Below, piece by piece: positions 4,823 through 62,725 of a DNA stretch of 64,000 nt (position 1 is the stretch's first letter; the number at the start of each line of letters is the position of its first letter). Origin of the DNA: Flaviaesturariibacter aridisoli (lineage in GTDB: Bacteria > Bacteroidota > Bacteroidia > Chitinophagales > Chitinophagaceae); contig NZ_SKFH01000012.1 of assembly GCF_004343705.1 (NCBI RefSeq), positions 1 through 64,000 on the forward strand. The letters run 5' to 3'. The notes beneath the pieces were generated by a model. The model was not told where the DNA came from and did no database searches. It was given only the letters and a program-made list of their open reading frames with translations. The position numbers and the translations under genes were made by a program.

Positions 4823-5576
4823 AGGCCCGCTCCAGCACCGAGATCCCCGCGTTCGTCAGCTGGTAGCGCTGCCAGCCGGCCCGGTGGACGAGACCGGCGC
4901 GGATGCCAGCCTGCAATACTTTGTACAGCCCGGTATAGGACAGCCGCGTCGTTTTTTGCAGTTCGGGGTACGCACGGCGTTCATTGCCCGGGCGGCAAAG
5001 TGCATTTAGCAGCAGGGGCAGGTTACGTTCCTGCGGCCAGCGCAGGTGGGGCACCGGGCCCGCCCGCAGATGTGCGGCGATGGCCCTCCAGGAAGGAAGG
5101 GCCACCGAAAGGCGCGTGAGGCGCTCATTGCGGACAGCTTCCGCCGTAGCTCTTTCGGCTTGTTGCCGGAAAGGTGCAGATAGGAACCCGGAGGCGGTAG
5201 TGTCTACGGGGAAGATTGACCCGGAAAGTCCGGGGAATCCATCCAAAATGCCCGGGTTTGTCCCGGTATGCTCCGCTTCCGGGTGAAACAACTGGTTTTT
5301 TGACCGGGCCGGCAGGCTGGCCGGGTTCAAAAACTGCTTTGTTGACCCGGCAGGTTCGATGGCCGTAGCAAAACACTCGTTCTTTGTCCCGGCATCGCCA
5401 ACGGCTGGGTTAAACCCCGGGTTGTTTGTCCCGGCATCGCCGTTCGGGTGGTGCGTATTGCTGCTGCGCATCGCGCGCAGTTCTTCTTCCAGCCGCAGGT
5501 TTTTCTCCGCCAGGGCGGATACGACCGCCGTCAGGCGGCGGTTCTCGGCTTGCAGGTGCAGGAGCTCTTGATGCAT
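4779..5576 (-). CDS. Unknown protein: coiled coil, 14-residue repeats, winged-helix-like C-terminus
   Basis: 265 residues from the ATG at 5576 (MHQELLHLQAENRRL). Not recognised as a named family. Residues about 3-38 form a coiled coil (LQAENRRLTAVVSALAEKNL). Residues about 45-125 hold five to six imperfect 14-residue repeats of AGTxNxxF type, encoded by a 42-bp (2 x 21) DNA repeat. The last 90 residues (LPLLLNALCRP, LSYTGLYKVLQAGIRAGLV, YQLTNAGISVLE) look like a winged-helix domain. The final residues (HPPAPSQREGE) come from a dispersed repeat. A DNA-binding role is only a guess. Confidence 0.5.
   Translation of the reverse strand: MHQELLHLQAENRRLTAVVSALAEKNLRLEEELRAMRSSNTHHPNGDAGTNNPGFNPAVGDAGTKNECFATAIEPAGSTKQFLNPASLPARSKNQLFHPEAEHTGTNPGILDGFPGLSGSIFPVDTTASGFLSAPFRQQAERATAEAVRNERLTRLSVALPSWRAIAAHLRAGPVPHLRWPQERNLPLLLNALCRPGNERRAYPELQKTTRLSYTGLYKVLQAGIRAGLVHRAGWQRYQLTNAGISVLERAFQTHPPAPSQREGE
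5216..5446. repeat. 21-bp-register array (42-bp unit) inside the coding region
   Basis: On the plus strand a TTG(A/T)CC-CGG block starts at 5216, 5258, 5300, 5342, 5384 and 5426, exactly 42 bp apart. A second block of CCGGGTTcAAA type starts half-way at 5279, 5321, 5363 and 5405, exactly 21 bp after the first. The register is kept without a single-base slip across 11 half-units. Confidence 0.8.
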
Positions 5577-5743: not shown

Positions 5744-7339
5744 ATGCTACAGCTCCAACAGCTTACCTACCGGCATGCCGACGGCACGCCGCTGTTCTCC
5801 GACCTTAATTTATCGCTCCAGGCCCCCGCGAAAGCCGCACTGGTGGGCCATAACGGCTGCGGCAAGTCGACCCTGCTCCGCCTCCTCGCCGGCGCCGAAG
5901 CACCCAGCGGCGGCAGCGCCCGCGTGGACGGATCGCACTGGTACGTGCCCCAGCACCTCGGCTCCTTCGATGGCCAGACCGTGGCGGAAGTGCTCGGCGC
6001 CGCCGAAAAGCTCGGGGCCCTGGCCGACGTGCTCGCCGGCCGCAACGTGGAAGAGGCCCTCGTTCGCCTCGACGACGACTGGACGGTAGCGGAGCGCTTC
6101 CGCGCCGCCCTCGACCATTGGGGGCTGCCCGGCCTCGCTCCCGGCACCCTCCTCGGCGCCCTCAGCGGCGGGCAAAAAACACGCGTTTTCCTCGCCGGGC
6201 TTGCGTTTGCCGACCCAAAAACAGTGTTGCTCGACGAACCAAGCAACCACCTCGACGCCGGTGGACGTGCCCTGCTGTACGATTGGGTGCGCTCCACCCG
6301 CTCGCTGCTGCTGGTCGTGAGCCACGACCGCGCCCTCCTCAACGAGTTGCCGCTCACCTACGAGCTCGGGCCGCAGGGCCTGACGGCCTACGGCGGCAAC
6401 TACGACTTTTACGCGGCGCAAAAAGCCGGCGCCGACGCGGCGCTGGAAGAAGACCTGCTGCACGGCGAAAAGGAGCTGCGCAAGGCAAAAGCTGCGGCCC
6501 GCGCCATGGCCGAGCGGCAGGCAAAGCGCGATGCCCGCGCGGAAAAGAGCTCGGGCAAAGCGGGCCTGCCCAGCATCGTGATCAACAACCTCCGCAACGC
6601 CGCTCAGAACAGCACCGCCCGCGCACAGGGGGTGCACAGCGGCAAGGTGGATGCCATCCGCCGCGAGGTGGACGCCCTCCGCGCCGCCGTGCCCGACCGC
6701 GACCGGATGAAGCTGCGCTTTTCCGATTCGGCCCTGCACCGCGGCAAGACGCTCTTCGTGGCCGAAGACCTGCAATACCGTATCGACGGACGCCCGCTGT
6801 GGGCGCCCCTGACCTTCCGCATCGGCTCGGGCGAGCGCCTTGCGATCGAAGGACCCAACGGCTCGGGCAAGACCACGCTGCTGCGCCTGCTGTTGGGCGG
6901 ACTGGAGCCTTCGGGCGGCCGCCTGCAGCGATCGGTGCAGCGGTCGGTGTACATCGACCAGCACTATTCGCTGCTGGATGAAACGTGTACGGTGCTGGAA
7001 CAGGCGCAGCGGTTCAATCGCCACGCCCTGCCCGAGCACGAGCTGCGCACCCGGCTCGACTGGTTCCTGTTCGGTGCCGCCGACAGCGGCAAGCGCTGCG
7101 CAGCCCTCAGCGGCGGCGAGCGGATGCGGCTGGCCCTCTGCTGCCTCAACATCGCCGACGGCGCCCCCGACCTCATCGTGCTCGACGAGCCCACCAACAA
7201 CCTCGACCTCCGCAACACCGAGATTCTCGCCGCCGCCGTGCGCGACTACGAAGGCACGCTGATCGTGGTGTCGCACGATGAGCGCTTCCGGGAAGAGGTA
7301 GGGGTAGCGGGGACGATCAACGTGAGGCGTGAGACGTGA
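5744..7339 (+). CDS. ABC-F family ATPase with two nucleotide-binding domains
   Basis: 531 residues from the ATG at 5744 (MLQLQQLTYRHADGTPLF); the frame is open further upstream, but that stretch overlaps the divergent gene. Two ABC domains are complete. The first has Walker A GHNGCGKST (about 35), signature LSGGQKTR and Walker B VLLDEPSNHLD (about 160). The second has GPNGSGKTT (about 370), LSGGERMRL and LIVLDEPTNNLD (about 477). They are joined by a charged helical linker (about 225-300). There are no membrane segments. ABC-F proteins act on the ribosome (translation factors or antibiotic protection); which role applies here cannot be told. A TACCTTCG promoter-like box lies about 110 bp upstream. 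Confidence 0.93.
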   Translation: MLQLQQLTYRHADGTPLFSDLNLSLQAPAKAALVGHNGCGKSTLLRLLAGAEAPSGGSARVDGSHWYVPQHLGSFDGQTVAEVLGAAEKLGALADVLAGRNVEEALVRLDDDWTVAERFRAALDHWGLPGLAPGTLLGALSGGQKTRVFLAGLAFADPKTVLLDEPSNHLDAGGRALLYDWVRSTRSLLLVVSHDRALLNELPLTYELGPQGLTAYGGNYDFYAAQKAGADAALEEDLLHGEKELRKAKAAARAMAERQAKRDARAEKSSGKAGLPSIVINNLRNAAQNSTARAQGVHSGKVDAIRREVDALRAAVPDRDRMKLRFSDSALHRGKTLFVAEDLQYRIDGRPLWAPLTFRIGSGERLAIEGPNGSGKTTLLRLLLGGLEPSGGRLQRSVQRSVYIDQHYSLLDETCTVLEQAQRFNRHALPEHELRTRLDWFLFGAADSGKRCAALSGGERMRLALCCLNIADGAPDLIVLDEPTNNLDLRNTEILAAAVRDYEGTLIVVSHDERFREEVGVAGTINVRRET

Positions 7340-7468
7340 GGCGTGAGGCGTGAGGTCCCGTTCGCCCGCGAACGAGGCCGCTCTCAAATAAAGGCCTCCG
7401 TCCGTCGTGCAAGCGGCGCTTTCGGTTCAACCTGCACCCGCTCACGGCTCACGCTTCACGCCTCACGA
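7322..7468. repeat. Inverted heptad arms, GTGAGGC type
   Basis: Five tandem 7-bp units of GTGAGGC type at 7322-7356, beginning inside the ABC-F stop region, and four units in inverse orientation (CTCACGC type) at 7441-7468. Between them is a small hairpin CGTTCGCCCGCGAACG. Same composite design as at 48422, 54608 and 62599. Confidence 0.8.
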
Positions 7469-26083: not shown

Positions 26084-27556
26084 ATGCAGCGTCTTTTTCA
26101 AAATACGCGTTGGATGCCCCTGCTGATGCTCCTGGCGATCGCGGGAATCGCCGCCTTCCAGTATTACTGGCTGAGCGAGGCTTTTCAGCGCGAGAGCCGC
26201 TCGCTCACCCGCGGCAGCAACTTCATCTTCCGCGAAAGCGTGCGCCAGCTGCAGGCTTCCAAGATCCGCCTCGACCGCGTGGACCGCTCGGGGCCGGACA
26301 GTGCCGCAGGTCATGGCAACAAGGTGGTCGTACGCTCCTATGCCGGCCCCCACGGGTTAGCCCTCAGCACCGACTCCAATTTCGTGGGGATGGTGCAGAT
26401 GCTCAACGAGCGCCTCGTGCACGAGCGCTTCGCCGACTCCTCGCGCATCGGCCGCGCCCTGGTGCTCCCCGACGAACGGCCCCGCTCCGACAGCCTCGAT
26501 CAGGAGCGCCGCCGCCGCTTTCGTGAGCGCGACCGCCTGTTCCAGGTGATGTTCGATACCGAGGCGCCCGGCGACTCGATCCGCCTGCGCGAGGTGGACA
26601 GCCTCTTTGGCCGCCGCATGCGCCAGCAGAACCTATCGGTGCCCTTCACCGTTACCCGCATTCCGCCCAGCGCCCGCGACACGCTGCCCAACCGCGTTAC
26701 GGTGGGCCTGCGCAACCCCGTGACCTACCAGCTCGAGCTCGGCCACACGCTGCCCTACCTGCTGCAAAAGATCTCCGGCGCCATCATCCTGTCGGTATTC
26801 CTCGTACTGTTCTGCGCCCTTTCCTTCTGGGTGCTGTACCGCAACCTGGCCCGCCAGCGCCGCCTCGCCGACATCAAGAATGAATTCATTTCCAACATTA
26901 CCCACGAGCTTAAAACGCCCATCGCCACCGTCAGCGTGGCCATCGAGGCGCTGCGCAGCTTCAATGCCTCCATGGACCCGTCGAAGTCAAAAGAGTACCT
27001 CGATATTTCCGCCAACGAGCTGCAGCGCCTGTCGCTGCTGGTAGACAAAGTACTGAAGCTGTCGATGTTCGAGAAGCGCTCCATAGAGCTCAAGTATGAA
27101 GACCTCGACCTGCAGGCCCTCGTGCAGGAAGTGACCGACTCGATGCGGCTCCAGTTCGAGCGCCGTCATGCTACGGTGAACGTGGAAGCGGTGGGCGACA
27201 CGCGTCTGCAGGGCGACCGCCTCAACCTCGTGAGCGTGCTGTTCAACCTGGTAGACAATGCCCTCAAATACAGCGATGGCACGCCCAATATCCTCATTGC
27301 ACTACGCGAGGCCGGCAACAAGGTGCAGCTCAGCGTCACCGACAACGGCATCGGCGTGCCGGAGGAATACCGGGGACGCATTTTCGAAAAATTCTTCCGC
27401 GTGCCCACCGGCAACATTCACAATGCCAAAGGCTACGGCCTCGGCCTCAGCTACGTGTCGCACGTGGTAGACCGACACAAGGGTACGATTCGCGTGGAGC
27501 CCAACGGCCCCAGCGGCAGCCGCTTTATCATTACCCTCCCTAAAAACCCAGCATGA
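26084..27556 (+). CDS. Sensor histidine kinase
   Basis: 490 residues. Membrane segments at about 10-27 and 233-252 enclose a periplasmic sensor region of about 200 residues rich in Arg/Asp. The HisKA domain carries the phosphoacceptor His about 274 (ISNITHELKTPIATVSVAIE). The ATPase domain has the N box (NLVDNALKYS, Asn about 392), G1 (VTDNGIGVPEE), F box (IFEKFFR) and G2 (GYGLGLSYV). The gene overlaps the regulator gene by 4 bp. It lies divergent from the GLPGLI gene, with a shared operator-like site. The signal sensed is unknown; the neighbourhood suggests envelope state. Confidence 0.95.
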   Translation: MQRLFQNTRWMPLLMLLAIAGIAAFQYYWLSEAFQRESRSLTRGSNFIFRESVRQLQASKIRLDRVDRSGPDSAAGHGNKVVVRSYAGPHGLALSTDSNFVGMVQMLNERLVHERFADSSRIGRALVLPDERPRSDSLDQERRRRFRERDRLFQVMFDTEAPGDSIRLREVDSLFGRRMRQQNLSVPFTVTRIPPSARDTLPNRVTVGLRNPVTYQLELGHTLPYLLQKISGAIILSVFLVLFCALSFWVLYRNLARQRRLADIKNEFISNITHELKTPIATVSVAIEALRSFNASMDPSKSKEYLDISANELQRLSLLVDKVLKLSMFEKRSIELKYEDLDLQALVQEVTDSMRLQFERRHATVNVEAVGDTRLQGDRLNLVSVLFNLVDNALKYSDGTPNILIALREAGNKVQLSVTDNGIGVPEEYRGRIFEKFFRVPTGNIHNAKGYGLGLSYVSHVVDRHKGTIRVEPNGPSGSRFIITLPKNPA

Positions 27557-28233
27557 AGACACCGAAGATCCTCTACGTGGAAGACGAGATTTTCCTGGCC
27601 AAGATCGTAAGCGAAACCCTCCAGGGGCGCGGCTTTGAAGTAGTGCTGGAAAGCGATGGCGGGCAGGCGCTGCAGCGCTTCGACGAAACGCAGCCCGACG
27701 TGTGCCTGCTCGACGTGATGCTGCCCAACAAAGACGGCTTCGACATCGCCGATGGCATCCGCGACCGCAACACCGAAGTGCCCATCATCTTTCTCAGTGC
27801 CAAGAGCGAAGCCACCGACGTGGTCAATGGATTTAAGATCGGGGGCAACGACTACATCCGTAAGCCCTTTTCGATGGAAGAGCTCATCGTACGCATCGAA
27901 AACGTGCTGCGGCACCCGCTGGCCGCCGTTGAGCAGGACGACGTGAAGCTCGCTGCCTACGTGTTTAACGCCAAGCGACAAACGCTCGTCCATCCGCAGG
28001 AAACGCGCAAGCTGTCGTACCGCGAGAGTGAGCTGCTGCGCCTGCTGTACCAGAACCGCAACGACGTGGTGGAGCGCCGCGATATCCTCAACCTGCTCTG
28101 GGGCTCCGATTCCTTCTTCAACAGCCGCAACCTCGACGTGTACATCACCAAGCTGCGCAATTACCTCAAACTCGACCCGGGCATCGAGATCATCACGATC
28201 AAGGGAATCGGCTACCGGTTTGTGCTGGGATGA
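27553..28233 (+). CDS. OmpR/PhoB-type response regulator
   Basis: 226 residues. Receiver domain (about 5-118) with acidic pocket ED near 11-12, phosphoacceptor Asp54 (CLLDVMLP), and conserved Lys104 (IRKPF). Winged-helix output domain (about 130-225) with LSYRESELLRLLYQNRNDVV and VYITKLRNYLKLDPGIEI, ending GIGYRFVL as usual. ATG overlaps the kinase stop (ATGA), so translation is coupled. OmpR-type proteins bind direct repeats with a 10-11 bp step, matching the GTTAA-N5-GTTAA sites nearby; that pairing is inference. Confidence 0.96.
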   Translation: MKTPKILYVEDEIFLAKIVSETLQGRGFEVVLESDGGQALQRFDETQPDVCLLDVMLPNKDGFDIADGIRDRNTEVPIIFLSAKSEATDVVNGFKIGGNDYIRKPFSMEELIVRIENVLRHPLAAVEQDDVKLAAYVFNAKRQTLVHPQETRKLSYRESELLRLLYQNRNDVVERRDILNLLWGSDSFFNSRNLDVYITKLRNYLKLDPGIEIITIKGIGYRFVLG

Positions 28234-28285
28234 CCTCACCCGACCTTTACCCCGGCCCCTCTCCGGGTGGAGCGGGGTGCCTCTG
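28231..28285. repeat. Dispersed palindromic repeat, left arm of the 28-kb element
   Basis: CCCCTCTCCGGGTGGAG core with a CCCGACC tail, starting at the stop codon of the regulator gene. It is inverted relative to 28691-28741. Confidence 0.75.
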
Positions 28286-28307
28286 TGGAGGAGTTCCTAT
28301 TGTTGGT

Positions 28308-28364
28308 CGATGTACGATAGGCGTACATCGTAATTACAAATCCCCGCTCTGCACCGGAGCGGGG
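28308..28364. other. Two hairpins ahead of the 21-bp array
   Basis: CGATGTAC / GTACATCG (28308-28330, 7-nt loop) and CCCCGCTC / GAGCGGGG (28342-28364, 7-nt loop). Neither has a T-run, so they are not typical terminators. Confidence 0.65.
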
Positions 28365-28375
28365 TTACGGGTAAG

Positions 28376-28630
28376 GTACGGCACCGAAACAGCCTCTTAC
28401 CCGGCGCTTCTGTCACCTTACCGACTGCTTTTGTTAGTTGACAGGTCGGAAAAATACTGTTACGGGCTGATTGGGACAATTGACATAGTGCAACAATGCT
28501 GTTACCGACTGATTCAGTCCCTTTACATGTCGGAAAAATCCCTTTACGGGCTGATTACGACATCTTACCTGCTGCTATGGCAGATTTACACGGCGCTTTT
28601 GTCAGTTTACAGCGTGTTTCTGCTTGTTAC
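28376..28630. repeat. 21-bp-register array, TTAC-N5-G-N11 units
   Basis: A T(T/G)AC tetramer starts at 28397, 28418, 28439, 28460, 28481, 28502, 28523, 28544, 28565, 28586 and 28607, every step exactly 21 bp (28376 reads GTAC; the last, 28627, is 20 bp on). In the eleven units 28397-28607 the tenth base is always G. Units at 28418-28481 and 28502-28565 resemble each other pairwise (TTACCGACTG; GTCGGAAAAAT; TTACGGGCTGATT), giving an 84-bp superperiod. Confidence 0.9.
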
Positions 28631-28690
28631 GCGTTTGTTTTCATCACGCCTCTTCCATTCGAAAACAGCCACGAAAAAAAGAACTATCCC

Positions 28691-28741
28691 GCGGGGCACC
28701 CCTCTCCACCCGGAGAGGGCCCGGGGGGAGGTCGGGATGGA
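28691..28741. repeat. Dispersed palindromic repeat, right arm of the 28-kb element
   Basis: CTCCACCCGGAGAGGG core; inverse of the copy at 28231-28285. Together they enclose about 405 bp with two hairpins and the array. 28742-28772 shows nothing more. Confidence 0.75.
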
Positions 28742-28772
28742 CCTGGGAACGATCTTTTTAGCGGTTGCCCTT

Positions 28773-30443
28773 ATGCGCCTTTCCAAACGTAAACGCTGGC
28801 TCCTCGGCGGCCTCTCCGCATTTGCGCTCCTGCTACTGGCCTTTGCGGTTGCCGCCGAGCGCTACGTGGAGCCCATTCTCCGAAAACGCATCGGCGTCCT
28901 CATCGTCCAGGGATCCGACAGCCTCTACACCTGGCGGCTGGATAAGCTCGAAGCCTCCCTCTTCGGGGGGCACGTGGAGATCAACGGGCTGCACGTGGCG
29001 GTGGACAGCAACCGCTACCGGCAACTACTGGCCGAAAAGCGGCTGCCGCCGCTGACGCTGCAGGTAGACATGCCCCACGCGCACCTGCGCGGCGTAGACG
29101 TGTTCAACCTGCTGCTGGCGCGCAACGTGAGCATCGGCGAGCTGTTGACGCAGGACGCCCGCATCGAGGTATGGCGCAATGGGCGCGAGGAACGCAAAAA
29201 CTGGGACCGGCCGCCGCTCTGGAAAATGATCCGCCCCAACATCAACACGATCGTGCTGAAAAAGCTGCAGCTCGACGGCGTGCGCTTCGCCTACCGCCAT
29301 GCCGACGACACCGGCGACGTCCAACTGAAGTTCGACACCTGCACCGCCCTCATCCGCGACATCCGCATCGACAGCGCCGCCGCCGCTGACCCCGAGCGCA
29401 TCGGCTTTTGCCGTTACGTGCGCCTCCACTTTTTCGACCTCAAATACCGCTCGGCCGACTCGGCCACCAAGCTCAAGGCCCGCACCATCGACTACAACTC
29501 CGAAGAACGCCTGCTGAGCATTACCGACTTCAAGCTGCAGCCCACCCGGAAAGACAAGGAAAGCTTTTACAGCGCTACCGACAAGCAGCAGCAGATGACC
29601 ACCATCGAGTTCGCCCGCCTCGACCTGACGCAATTCCGCGTGGAGGAATTCGTGCGCAACAACGCCATCGTAGCCGACAGCCTGCTGATCGATACGCCGT
29701 CGATCCGTATTTATACAGATAAGACGCTGCCGCCCACCCTCGAGGGAAAAATGGGCCGCTACCCGCAACAGCTGCTGGTAAACGCCAGCACCGACGTGCG
29801 CATAAAAGGCATGGCGCTGCGCGGCGCTTCTGTATCCTATACCGAACGCTCGGAGAAGAGCGGTGAAGAAGGAACGCTTTCGCTCGGTCGCCTCAACATC
29901 GTGGCGGCCAACCTCACCAACATACCTGCCGACATCCTTCGCGACAGCACCTGCCGCGTGCGGGCTACGGGCAACATCCTCGGCGGCTCGCCCCTGGATG
30001 TGGGCTTTACCTTTTTCCTCGCCGCTCCCGAAGGACGCTTTGCCGTGGAAGGCAACATCCGCAACGTGCGGGCCTCGCAACTCAACGGGCTTGCCGAGCC
30101 GCTGGCCGGCATCCGCCTTCAGTCGCTCGACCTGCAGGAGCTGCGCTTCCGCCTCGAAGGCAACGAATACACCGCCCGCGGCGAAGTGGGCATGCGCTAC
30201 CGCAACCTCTACCTCATCCTGCAAAAGGAAGACAAGGAGACAGGCCTGCTCAAAACAAAAAAGCTGCTGACGAAGCTGGTGAACAAGTACACGCTGCTGC
30301 ACGACAACCCGGCCCCCGACGGGCACGAGGCGGTGGCCCGCAACGTAGAGCGCAGCCGCCTGATGACGCAAACCTTTTTCGGACTCGTGTGGCAGGCCAT
30401 CTTCAGCGGCATGCAAACGATCATGACCAATACGGCGGATTAA
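28773..30443 (+). CDS. AsmA/TamB-like membrane-anchored protein
   Basis: 556 residues from the ATG at 28773 (MRLSKRKRWLLGGLSAFALL). The frame is open 540 bp further upstream, but that stretch is repeat DNA. One membrane anchor (about 9-29), then a long beta-rich region: RIGVLIVQGSDSLYTWRLDK resembles the N-terminal AsmA-like domain, and later segments (GRFAVEGNIRNVRASQLNGL) resemble AsmA C-terminal repeats. Such proteins span the periplasm and are linked to lipid transport or outer-membrane assembly. The assignment is by pattern only. Confidence 0.65.
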   Translation: MRLSKRKRWLLGGLSAFALLLLAFAVAAERYVEPILRKRIGVLIVQGSDSLYTWRLDKLEASLFGGHVEINGLHVAVDSNRYRQLLAEKRLPPLTLQVDMPHAHLRGVDVFNLLLARNVSIGELLTQDARIEVWRNGREERKNWDRPPLWKMIRPNINTIVLKKLQLDGVRFAYRHADDTGDVQLKFDTCTALIRDIRIDSAAAADPERIGFCRYVRLHFFDLKYRSADSATKLKARTIDYNSEERLLSITDFKLQPTRKDKESFYSATDKQQQMTTIEFARLDLTQFRVEEFVRNNAIVADSLLIDTPSIRIYTDKTLPPTLEGKMGRYPQQLLVNASTDVRIKGMALRGASVSYTERSEKSGEEGTLSLGRLNIVAANLTNIPADILRDSTCRVRATGNILGGSPLDVGFTFFLAAPEGRFAVEGNIRNVRASQLNGLAEPLAGIRLQSLDLQELRFRLEGNEYTARGEVGMRYRNLYLILQKEDKETGLLKTKKLLTKLVNKYTLLHDNPAPDGHEAVARNVERSRLMTQTFFGLVWQAIFSGMQTIMTNTAD

Positions 30444-45006: not shown

Positions 45007-45061
45007 AGCTTTTGTTTTGGGGTGCTAAGGTAGCGGTTCCGGCGCATACCGCCACCATGCT

Positions 45062-45208
45062 CCCGGGGCGCGCACCCCTTTTCGAAACCCCTCTTACCCC
45101 TCTCGAAACCCCGTCAGCCGGTCTTTTAACTGCGCGGTCCCCTCTTTTAGCTGCGCGGTCCCATTACCAGAGGGGGCGGGCCCCCCTTTCCGTTCCGGCG
45201 CCCCTCTT
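45062..45208. repeat. 21-bp-register array between beta-barrel and unknown gene
   Basis: CGAAACCCC starts at 45083 and 45104; TTTA(A/G)CTGCGCGGTCCC starts at 45125 and 45146: all steps 21 bp. Flanking units at 45062 and 45167-45208 fit the register loosely (CCCCTTTT, CCCCTCT endings; one slip of 1 bp). Confidence 0.65.
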
Positions 45209-48421: not shown

Positions 48422-48556
48422 CGTGAGGCGTCAAGCGTCAGGCGTGAGTGCTGACGCCAGTAACGAAGAACGGATGCCCTTGGCATCCGTTCTTTATTTA
48501 CCGCGCATCGCGACGTCACGCCTCACGCCTGACGCCTCACGGCTCACGCCTCACGA
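48422..48556. repeat. Inverted heptad arms (GTGAGGC type) around a terminator
   Basis: Left arm: five units 48422-48456 (CGTGAGG, CGTCAAG, CGTCAGG, CGTGAGT, GCTGACG), starting at the base after the stop codon. Right arm: six inverse units 48515-48556 (CTCACGC type). Enclosed terminator 48466-48494. Confidence 0.85.
48466..48494 (+). terminator. Terminator between the CheY-like and rmuC genes
   Basis: Perfect 13-bp stem AAGAACGGATGCC / GGCATCCGTTCTT, 3-nt loop. Confidence 0.85.
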
Positions 48557-54603: not shown

Positions 54604-54607
54604 TAAC

Positions 54608-54758
54608 GTGAGGCGTGAGGCGTGAGCCGTGAACGCTGACGCCGGTAACGAAAATGTCCCGCACCAGGTGCGGGACATTTTTATTCAGACGCGCCTGTAA
54701 AGCTCACGCCTCACGCCTCACGCTTCACGCCTCACGCCTCACGCCTCACCTCTCACGT
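54608..54758. repeat. Inverted heptad arms (GTGAGGC type) around a terminator
   Basis: Left arm: five units at 54608-54642 (GTGAGGC, GTGAGGC, GTGAGCC, GTGAACG, CTGACGC). Right arm: eight inverse units at 54703-54758 (CTCACGC type). The terminator 54651-54681 lies between. The right arm ends 3 bp before the TonB-protein stop codon. Confidence 0.9.
54651..54681. terminator. Bidirectional terminator between convergent YqaE and TonB genes
   Basis: Perfect 15-bp stem AAAATGTCCCGCACC / GGTGCGGGACATTTT with a 1-nt central base, so the real loop will open a few pairs. Confidence 0.85.
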
Positions 54759-62594: not shown

Positions 62595-62598
62595 GAAT

Positions 62599-62725
62599 CG
62601 TGAGTCGTGAGGCGTGAACCGTGAACGCGCAATGCGCGGTAAAAAGAACGTCCCGCATTGCGGGACGTTCTTTTTTTATAGGCGTCAGCGCTGACGGCTG
62701 ACGGTTCACGCTTCACGATTAACGT
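62599..62725. repeat. Inverted heptad arms (CGTGAGT type) around a terminator
   Basis: Left arm: four units 62599-62626 (CGTGAGT, CGTGAGG, CGTGAAC, CGTGAAC), starting 4 bp after the OmpA stop. Right arm: about five inverse units 62691-62725 (CTGACGG, CTGACGG, TTCACGC, TTCACGA, TTAACGT). The stop codon (TAA) of the next gene lies in the last unit. Confidence 0.85.
62641..62675. terminator. Bidirectional terminator after the T9SS operon
   Basis: Perfect 16-bp stem AAAAAGAACGTCCCGC / GCGGGACGTTCTTTTT with loop ATT, followed by more T residues on the plus strand. Confidence 0.95.

Follow-up and report, generated by a model that had tools for sequence, protein, structure and literature searches.

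The window analysed here, a stretch of 64,000 nucleotides from the genome of Flaviaesturariibacter aridisoli (G000), carries a non-coding array of 21-bp units between a response regulator gene and a gene for a 556-aa protein, both of which we regard as bystanders. The array lies, together with two hairpins and the inverted arms of a REP-like element, within a segment that the closest relative (G016) lacks (Table 1).

Table 1. Features of the array locus, in window coordinates.
Feature	Position	Strand	Basis or remark
Response regulator gene (Response_reg, Trans_reg_C), upstream bystander	27553..28233	+	Pfam domains
Insertion relative to closest relative (G016)	28232..28772	.	homology stops at 28231, restarts at 28773
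REP-like GC-rich element, left arm	28239..28281	+	inverted copy of right arm; copies elsewhere in genome
Hairpin CGATGTACG...CGTACATCG	28308..28330	+	sequence
Hairpin CCCCGCTC...GAGCGGGG	28342..28364	+	sequence
Core array, 11 units x 21 bp	28397..28627	+	T[T/G]AC-N4-[C/T]-G-N11; blocks of 42/84 bp
Degenerate 12th unit, one base out of register	28627..28647	+	12 units with one 20-bp step
REP-like GC-rich element, right arm	28695..28736	-	inverted copy of left arm
556-aa gene, downstream bystander	28773..30443	+	no Pfam family at E 0.1; homologues in genus

The units of the core array (starting at 28397, 28418, 28439 and so on to 28607) keep a perfect 21-bp register, and all 11 open with T[T/G]AC and carry G at position 10, with C or T just before it (position 9). 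A sequence-only reading of this DNA had reported T(T/G)AC in eleven consecutive units without a slip, with G as base ten of each, and on both points it was confirmed: 2000 dinucleotide shuffles of the array gave no T[T/G]AC run longer than 3, the minus strand of the window reaches 2 at most, and T1, A3, C4 and G10 are constant over the 21 units of this array and of a second one on contig C8 of the same genome. The 'invariant TTAC and G' of that reading holds for the G, whereas TTAC should be written T[T/G]AC, as TGAC is found in 2 of the 11 window units (28439 and 28481) and in 2 of the 10 C8 units; this T/G toggle at position 2 differs even between paired units of the two arrays. Its count of 12-13 units is reduced to 11 in register, since the 12th TTAC (28627) comes one base early and has no G at base 10, and the GTAC at 28376 is doubtful as a unit. 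Autocorrelation, run as had been proposed, gave identities of 0.43, 0.50, 0.44 and 0.52 at lags 21, 42, 63 and 84 (z = 6.5, 8.3, 6.2 and 8.2 against shuffles), which fits the four-unit blocks of 84 bp already seen in the letters; the view that this is no simple tandem duplication is likewise supported. Because raw lag-21 identity also attains 0.44-0.45 at positions 45026, 32331 and 53011 of the window, it does not by itself mark out the array, the exceptional feature of which is the fixed-base lattice. A 42-bp dyad (even units resembling inverted odd units) was rejected as not significant.

Other repeats are scattered through the window. Heptamer microsatellites of the CGTGAGG/CTCACGC kind occupy 7321-7355 and 7441-7467, 54607-54632 and 54703-54757, 48516-48555 and 62598-62617, twice as facing pairs about 100 bp apart. 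An imperfect 42-bp duplication with CCGGGT...ACCCGG dyads (5279-5365) resembles by eye a minus-strand coding region and not an array, and two 21-bp copies of TCTTTTAACTGCGCGGTCCCC stand within a GC-rich stretch at 45122-45162.

The inverted palindromes and two hairpins described earlier as enclosing the array are all present, but the palindromes are not specific to it: they are REP-like arms (88% identical as inverted copies) that recur at several other genome sites (matches on contigs C37, C32, C48 and C29, with an intergenic position seen for C37 and C32) and that bound an insertion. Of this locus, the flanking arms alone show what is expected of REP/BIME elements, namely short GC-rich palindromes with several intergenic copies. 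G016, in which the downstream 556-aa protein is 79% identical, has 38 bp in place of the inserted segment and no copy of the window array. The site of the C8 array measures roughly 10 bp between two convergent genes in G016, against about 450 bp in G000. With both sites empty in this relative, both arrays are therefore best read, from the aligned sequences, as insertions of 0.4-0.5 kb.

The C8 array (10 units, 86% identical to that of the window) was the only other one recovered in G000 by DNA query and sequence model. By blastn, the array had no homologue in 57 other genomes (a single chance match fell in a coding gene, L016) and matched nothing in phages and plasmids, while sequence models detected no clear homologue outside the window's own genome, either among 18 genomes of the genus (model R1) or in a family sample of 195 genomes (model R2). 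R2 (88 positions) gave matches at E 0.004-0.095 in 42 genomes besides the window's own, and at none of the 29 loci fetched (L018-L046) did a T[T/G]AC run of at least 4 stand at the matched place. One of them, L035 (genome G216, another genus), held by luck an independent array of the same period away from its R2 match, and it led to the wider class: TTACAnnnTGCTTTTGnnnn is repeated 10 times between a 5S rRNA gene and a gene for a 235-aa protein. The 5S rRNA gene (RF00001; L035:1714-1825, minus strand) ends just before the array. G216 has a second array before a paralog of the 235-aa protein, and the protein, used as query, led to arrays at most of its matches. The refuting condition named in the sequence-only reading, absence from all relatives, fails in a way that reading had not foreseen: blastn shows no homologue of the array sequence in the 57 other genomes, yet the architecture is present upstream of a protein family across the sampled Bacteroidota.

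Family proteins were found in 21 of 244 genomes of the bacterial family (single-sequence search), in at least 16 of 395 genomes sampled over the phylum (profile search; a lower bound, because six candidates were scored per genome) and in 5 of 18 genomes of the genus, with 15 copies in G000; many genomes lie in numerous contigs, and array counts per genome are not exhaustive. Named members come from three loci of two Chitinophagaceae MAGs, an uncultured Chitinophagaceae, Lacibacter cauensis (CGMCC 1.7271, locus L183), a Cytophagales MAG and a Bacteroidetes MAG. As a measure of association we took the highest lag-21 or lag-42 identity in any 105-nt segment within the 700-900 nt that precede the start codon, with a cut at 0.5; two loci without available upstream sequence (L147, L209) were dropped beforehand, and the positives include a few partial matches (L152, L164, L201) whose start position is an estimate. 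The cut was reached upstream of 71 of 84 family genes (33/40 in the first set, 19/24 in phylum-wide genomes, 18/19 in the genus and 1/1 for G000:C1), loci that are partly non-independent, as some are closely related and L237/L238 may stand for a single locus. As controls, 436 tiles (700 nt each) were taken from other loci, and 3 of these passed, two of them with a 14-bp short repeat; of 40 regions downstream of the genes, 2 passed (L149, L154), and there the array seems to be situated on the downstream side. L237 (G000:C47) and L238 (G000:C39), both at contig ends, are identical in family gene and array and may be a single locus assembled twice.

The 13 genes below the cut are varied. Besides L149 and L154, with their arrays downstream, they include a frameshifted gene (L185), three matches that begin inside the protein, so that their 'upstream' is not true upstream (L199, L200, L247), two loci with a weak 20-bp period (L189 and L198, the latter also a partial match), two G000 genes with arrays of 41-bp period, close to 2 x 20.5 (L138, L171), and L169, whose family gene (C2:277009) has an 11-unit 21-bp array (L169:1893-2123) some 0.9 kb upstream, separated from it by other sequence. 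No array was seen at two full-length family genes (L148, L196).

In 54 arrays the number of units ranges from 8 to 24 (median 13), and the distance from array end to start codon has a median of 137 bp (52 gene-linked arrays). Of 663 steps, 642 measure exactly 21 bp and 21 are off-register, despite 4267 of 15057 bases (28%) deviating from the consensus of their own array; the step figure is favourable, because the arrays were chosen with a 21-bp frame. The weight that the sequence-only reading gave to the 21-bp lock thus finds support, as does its remark that each unit spans two helical turns, which we consider the best clue to mechanism. The step and spacer, pair-similarity and word analyses, like the stop-codon test (from which 7 arrays dropped out), cover arrays with a conservation of at least 0.6. 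None of 70 arrays has palindromic units, and TIGR-like spacers were rejected, given that a contiguous 9-column variable block had a mean z of -0.67 (6 of 55 arrays below -2) and that the similarity of odd to even units fell below 0.6 in only 3 of 70 arrays. A protein-coding heptad repeat (some frames read CKxxEAx) was rejected too, because the fixed bases include third codon positions and the number of stops, 892, is only slightly below the roughly 942 given by column shuffles; stops occur in all six frames of 15 of 35 arrays, and the remaining 20 have one open frame, as the consensus predicts.

Unit sequences of different loci are mostly unrelated. Of the 30 pairs of arrays with a similarity above 0.6, 29 agree in strand relative to the gene. 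Certain words are also fixed in orientation: GAAA recurs on the gene-sense strand of 12 of 65 arrays and its reverse complement in 3 (in 95% of permuted sets no word occurs in more than 6), while TTACA and AGAAA are found in 5 arrays each, with 0 and 0 for their reverse complements (in 95% of permuted sets, at most 3); some of these 65 arrays have related proteins. The TTAC of the window array belongs to this theme of fixed gene-sense words. Judged by sequence comparison, the units turn over quickly: proteins that are 92-93% identical within one genome (L142 and L160 vs L174) have clearly different units, and among the 66 pairs formed by the 12 G000 genes with 21-bp arrays, units are similar in 3 (including the identical pair at two contig ends, maybe one locus).

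The family protein is about 225 aa long and predicted to be all-helical (L179 model: mean pLDDT 79.6, pTM 0.47), and about a third of the members (10/30 by Pfam) have a C-terminal carboxypeptidase-regulatory or transthyretin-like domain. The C-terminal domain of L183 resembles 5aq0 (VIA Z 15.6, rmsd 1.1 over 81 residues), and the matches shown for the full-length model (50) are to the C-terminal transthyretin-like domain. Over 56 sequences, conservation is 98% for Lys65, 100% for Asp188 and 96% for Arg211 (residue numbers as in the G000:C24 protein). An IS200-like transposase ORF (L168:5247-5708, plus strand; PF01797 Y1_Tnp, E 1.6e-18) lies downstream of the C24 family gene, about 1.5 kb away. 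For the helical part, a scan of 30 members against Pfam, NCBIfam, PHROGs and PADLOC gave no family beyond weak single matches, and comparison with PDB sequences no confident match. Fold searches yielded nothing confident for the helical model either, with a best VIA Z of 8.1 (helical-bundle noise) and best Foldseek E values of 0.6 in the PDB and 0.38 in a viral library; in this model (pTM 0.47), no helix-turn-helix was recognised, and no Nop, HEPN or DNA-binding fold was confidently matched. No family protein was confirmed in viral contigs, and one family protein, used as query, had no match in phages or among 72,556 plasmid records. No description of the array-protein system was found in the open-licence literature; it is widespread in Bacteroidota and apparently undescribed.

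The window array has the features of this class (21-bp direct repeats, a locked register and a unit motif in common with a gene-linked array). Its unit has a similarity of 0.758 to L137 and of 0.70 to L158, two gene-linked arrays of G216, and 0 of 300 column-permuted nulls reach either value over the whole set. With the G016:C10 array, which belongs to a full-length family gene in the closest relative, the similarity is 0.597 (7/300 nulls over the whole set, 0/300 for that target alone). The G000:C1 array, by contrast, cannot be said to share the window lattice, its similarity of 0.42 being within the null range. None of the 15 family genes of G000 stands beside the window or C8 array, the neighbours being other genes; hence, with no family gene adjoining it, we speak of an orphan array. 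Within G000, the nearest relative of the G016 family protein is the product of the C2:277009 gene (37% identical), which may be the trans partner of the window array.

Taken as one joint reading, which to our mind has an even chance of being right, the window array would be a transposed orphan from a class of 21-bp arrays whose usual place is upstream of a helical-protein gene, ending about 140 bp short of it, and the arrays would be oriented DNA binding platforms for the adjacent protein, the binding being what we infer. By analogy with plasmid iterons, each array would offer a series of oriented, helically phased sites, to which the adjacent protein may bind cooperatively on one helix face. 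The resulting nucleoprotein cluster could control the protein's own promoter, located between array and gene, and the units would drift together with the specificity of the protein, so that every paralog would recognise the array beside it. Both the window array and the C8 array, its 86% identical sister, would have been copied to new sites, where, if they act at all, they may serve a G000 family protein in trans, as decoys or as additional binding sites. We favour this DNA platform, most simply one for the adjacent protein, because of the two-turn spacing with few indels, the fixed orientation, the lack of coding, the weak RNA structure, the lack of a terminator-like site between array and gene and the promoter-like words downstream of the arrays.

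The main rival to the DNA platform is a function as RNA, in which the array would be transcribed and processed and the repeat RNA bound by the protein, in the manner of type III toxin-antitoxin systems or guide-RNA arrays; we deem it rather unlikely. It would suit the location of the array directly upstream of a single gene with a locus-specific unit, the fixed orientation to the gene (29/30 similar pairs) and the strand-specific words, and some arrays do fold better than their column-shuffled versions (pseudoknot-free; z below -2 for 5 of 35 arrays when the gene strand is folded and for 3 of 35 when the opposite strand is, L146 reaching -4.0 and L176 -4.1). With mean z values of only -0.72 and -0.35 on the two strands, respectively, and so few arrays outfolding their shuffles, RNA hairpins were nevertheless rejected, and so was the type III terminator architecture, as a simple hairpin-plus-T search found terminator-like sites in 0 of 70 spacers between array and gene (0.2 expected in shuffles). 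An RNA function is further disfavoured by the lack of a contiguous spacer block, by a 21-nt unit that is short for a pseudoknot and by the lack of an Rfam match in the window at gathering scores. The promoter-like words TANNTTTG, which we take to be the Bacteroidetes promoter word, also lie downstream of the arrays rather than upstream: 10 were counted between array and gene vs 4.7 expected (7 of 300 shuffles reach 10, close relatives counted apart) and 2 before the array vs 5.7 expected.

It is improbable, in our estimate, that the arrays serve as sites for a host nucleoid or curvature factor instead of the adjacent protein, their phased bendable DNA insulating or silencing a promoter and their sequence being free to drift. 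Such a role would agree with the frequent A-rich words and with a period that is kept while the units turn over, even between 92-93% identical proteins; it is at odds with GC-rich arrays that have no A-tracts (L170, L182, L197), and it leaves unexplained why this family of helical-protein genes carries arrays. Very improbable is a neutral minisatellite that hitch-hikes with the gene family and has no function. The fast turnover of units, the window and C8 copies that lack an adjoining family gene and are absent from G016, and the capacity of related tandem repeats to keep their period by descent all point that way, but 21 off-register steps vs 4267 substitutions in 54 arrays, the fixed oriented words and the recurrence upstream of the gene across phylum-sampled genomes with mostly unrelated units speak against neutrality.

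The DNA platform has its own difficulties. Searches with the modelled helical fold returned no confident match, no helix-turn-helix was recognised in it, and the units, unlike many operators, are not palindromic (0/70). Different arrays at 92-93% identical proteins sit badly with tight recognition unless specificity changes fast. Moreover, the strand-specific words fit RNA as well, 5 of 35 arrays fold better on the gene strand, the constancy of the period could be partly inherited, the promoter evidence is weak, and intact genes exist that have no array (L148, L196). As a tentative extension, it is possible that we are dealing with a new nucleic-acid recognition module, in which helical proteins with a near-invariant Lys, Asp and Arg would each be paired with their own fast-evolving two-turn array, amounting to about a dozen identities per genome; this could be a self/non-self, addiction or chromosome-marking system, with arrays copied as extra landing sites.

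What matters is that a protein family whose helical domain has no model found in Pfam, NCBIfam, PHROGs or PADLOC, and no confident sequence relative in the PDB, carries a private array upstream of most of its copies across the sampled Bacteroidota. If the arrays are binding platforms, they would belong to a rapidly diversifying DNA-recognition system; if they work as RNA, to a new protein-RNA array system. Either reading would explain a class of intergenic repeats overlooked by annotation, and the pairing of protein and array offers a way to find further members.

In plasmid iterons and centromeres (RepA iterons, ParR-parC, StbA of R388), direct repeats of one orientation are spaced by whole helical turns and adjoin a small-protein gene. 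The present class shares this layout with them, and the autoregulation we propose. It differs in that the unit sequence changes at most loci, in that no DNA-binding fold was recognised in the protein, in that no replication or motor gene was seen in association (from an unsystematic view of neighbours at the loci examined) and in the 0 of 72,556 plasmid records matched by one family-protein query. Type III toxin-antitoxin systems (ToxIN, CptIN, TenpIN) likewise have a tandem array with a locus-specific repeat just upstream of one protein gene; theirs comprises a few longer units, which form an RNA pseudoknot repeat, and is followed by a terminator and by the gene of a ToxN-like endoribonuclease. 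Our arrays resemble them in lying directly upstream of the gene (71/84) and in the locus-specific repeat, and depart from them in having 8-24 short units, not a few longer ones, and no terminator-like site (0/70); PADLOC gave only weak single matches for the family proteins, none of them to a ToxN-like model. In Porphyromonas gingivalis, a minisatellite has been described inside a MITE (PMC4596501). The likeness, which is one of description and not of repeat sequence, is to a tandem repeat within a mobile inverted-repeat element of a Bacteroidota genome, as in our window; unlike the class arrays, that minisatellite has no link to a protein family stated in the accessible part of the source. 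TIGR arrays, according to PMC12045711, alternate two 8-12-nt repeats with 9-nt spacers. The arrays of our class have no contiguous spacer block and little odd/even alternation, and a Nop domain was not identified in the family protein (Pfam, 30 members; fold search). With TIGR-Tas (PMC12045711) they nonetheless share an array beside a single protein gene, a short period, and repeats that are conserved within a locus and variable between loci.
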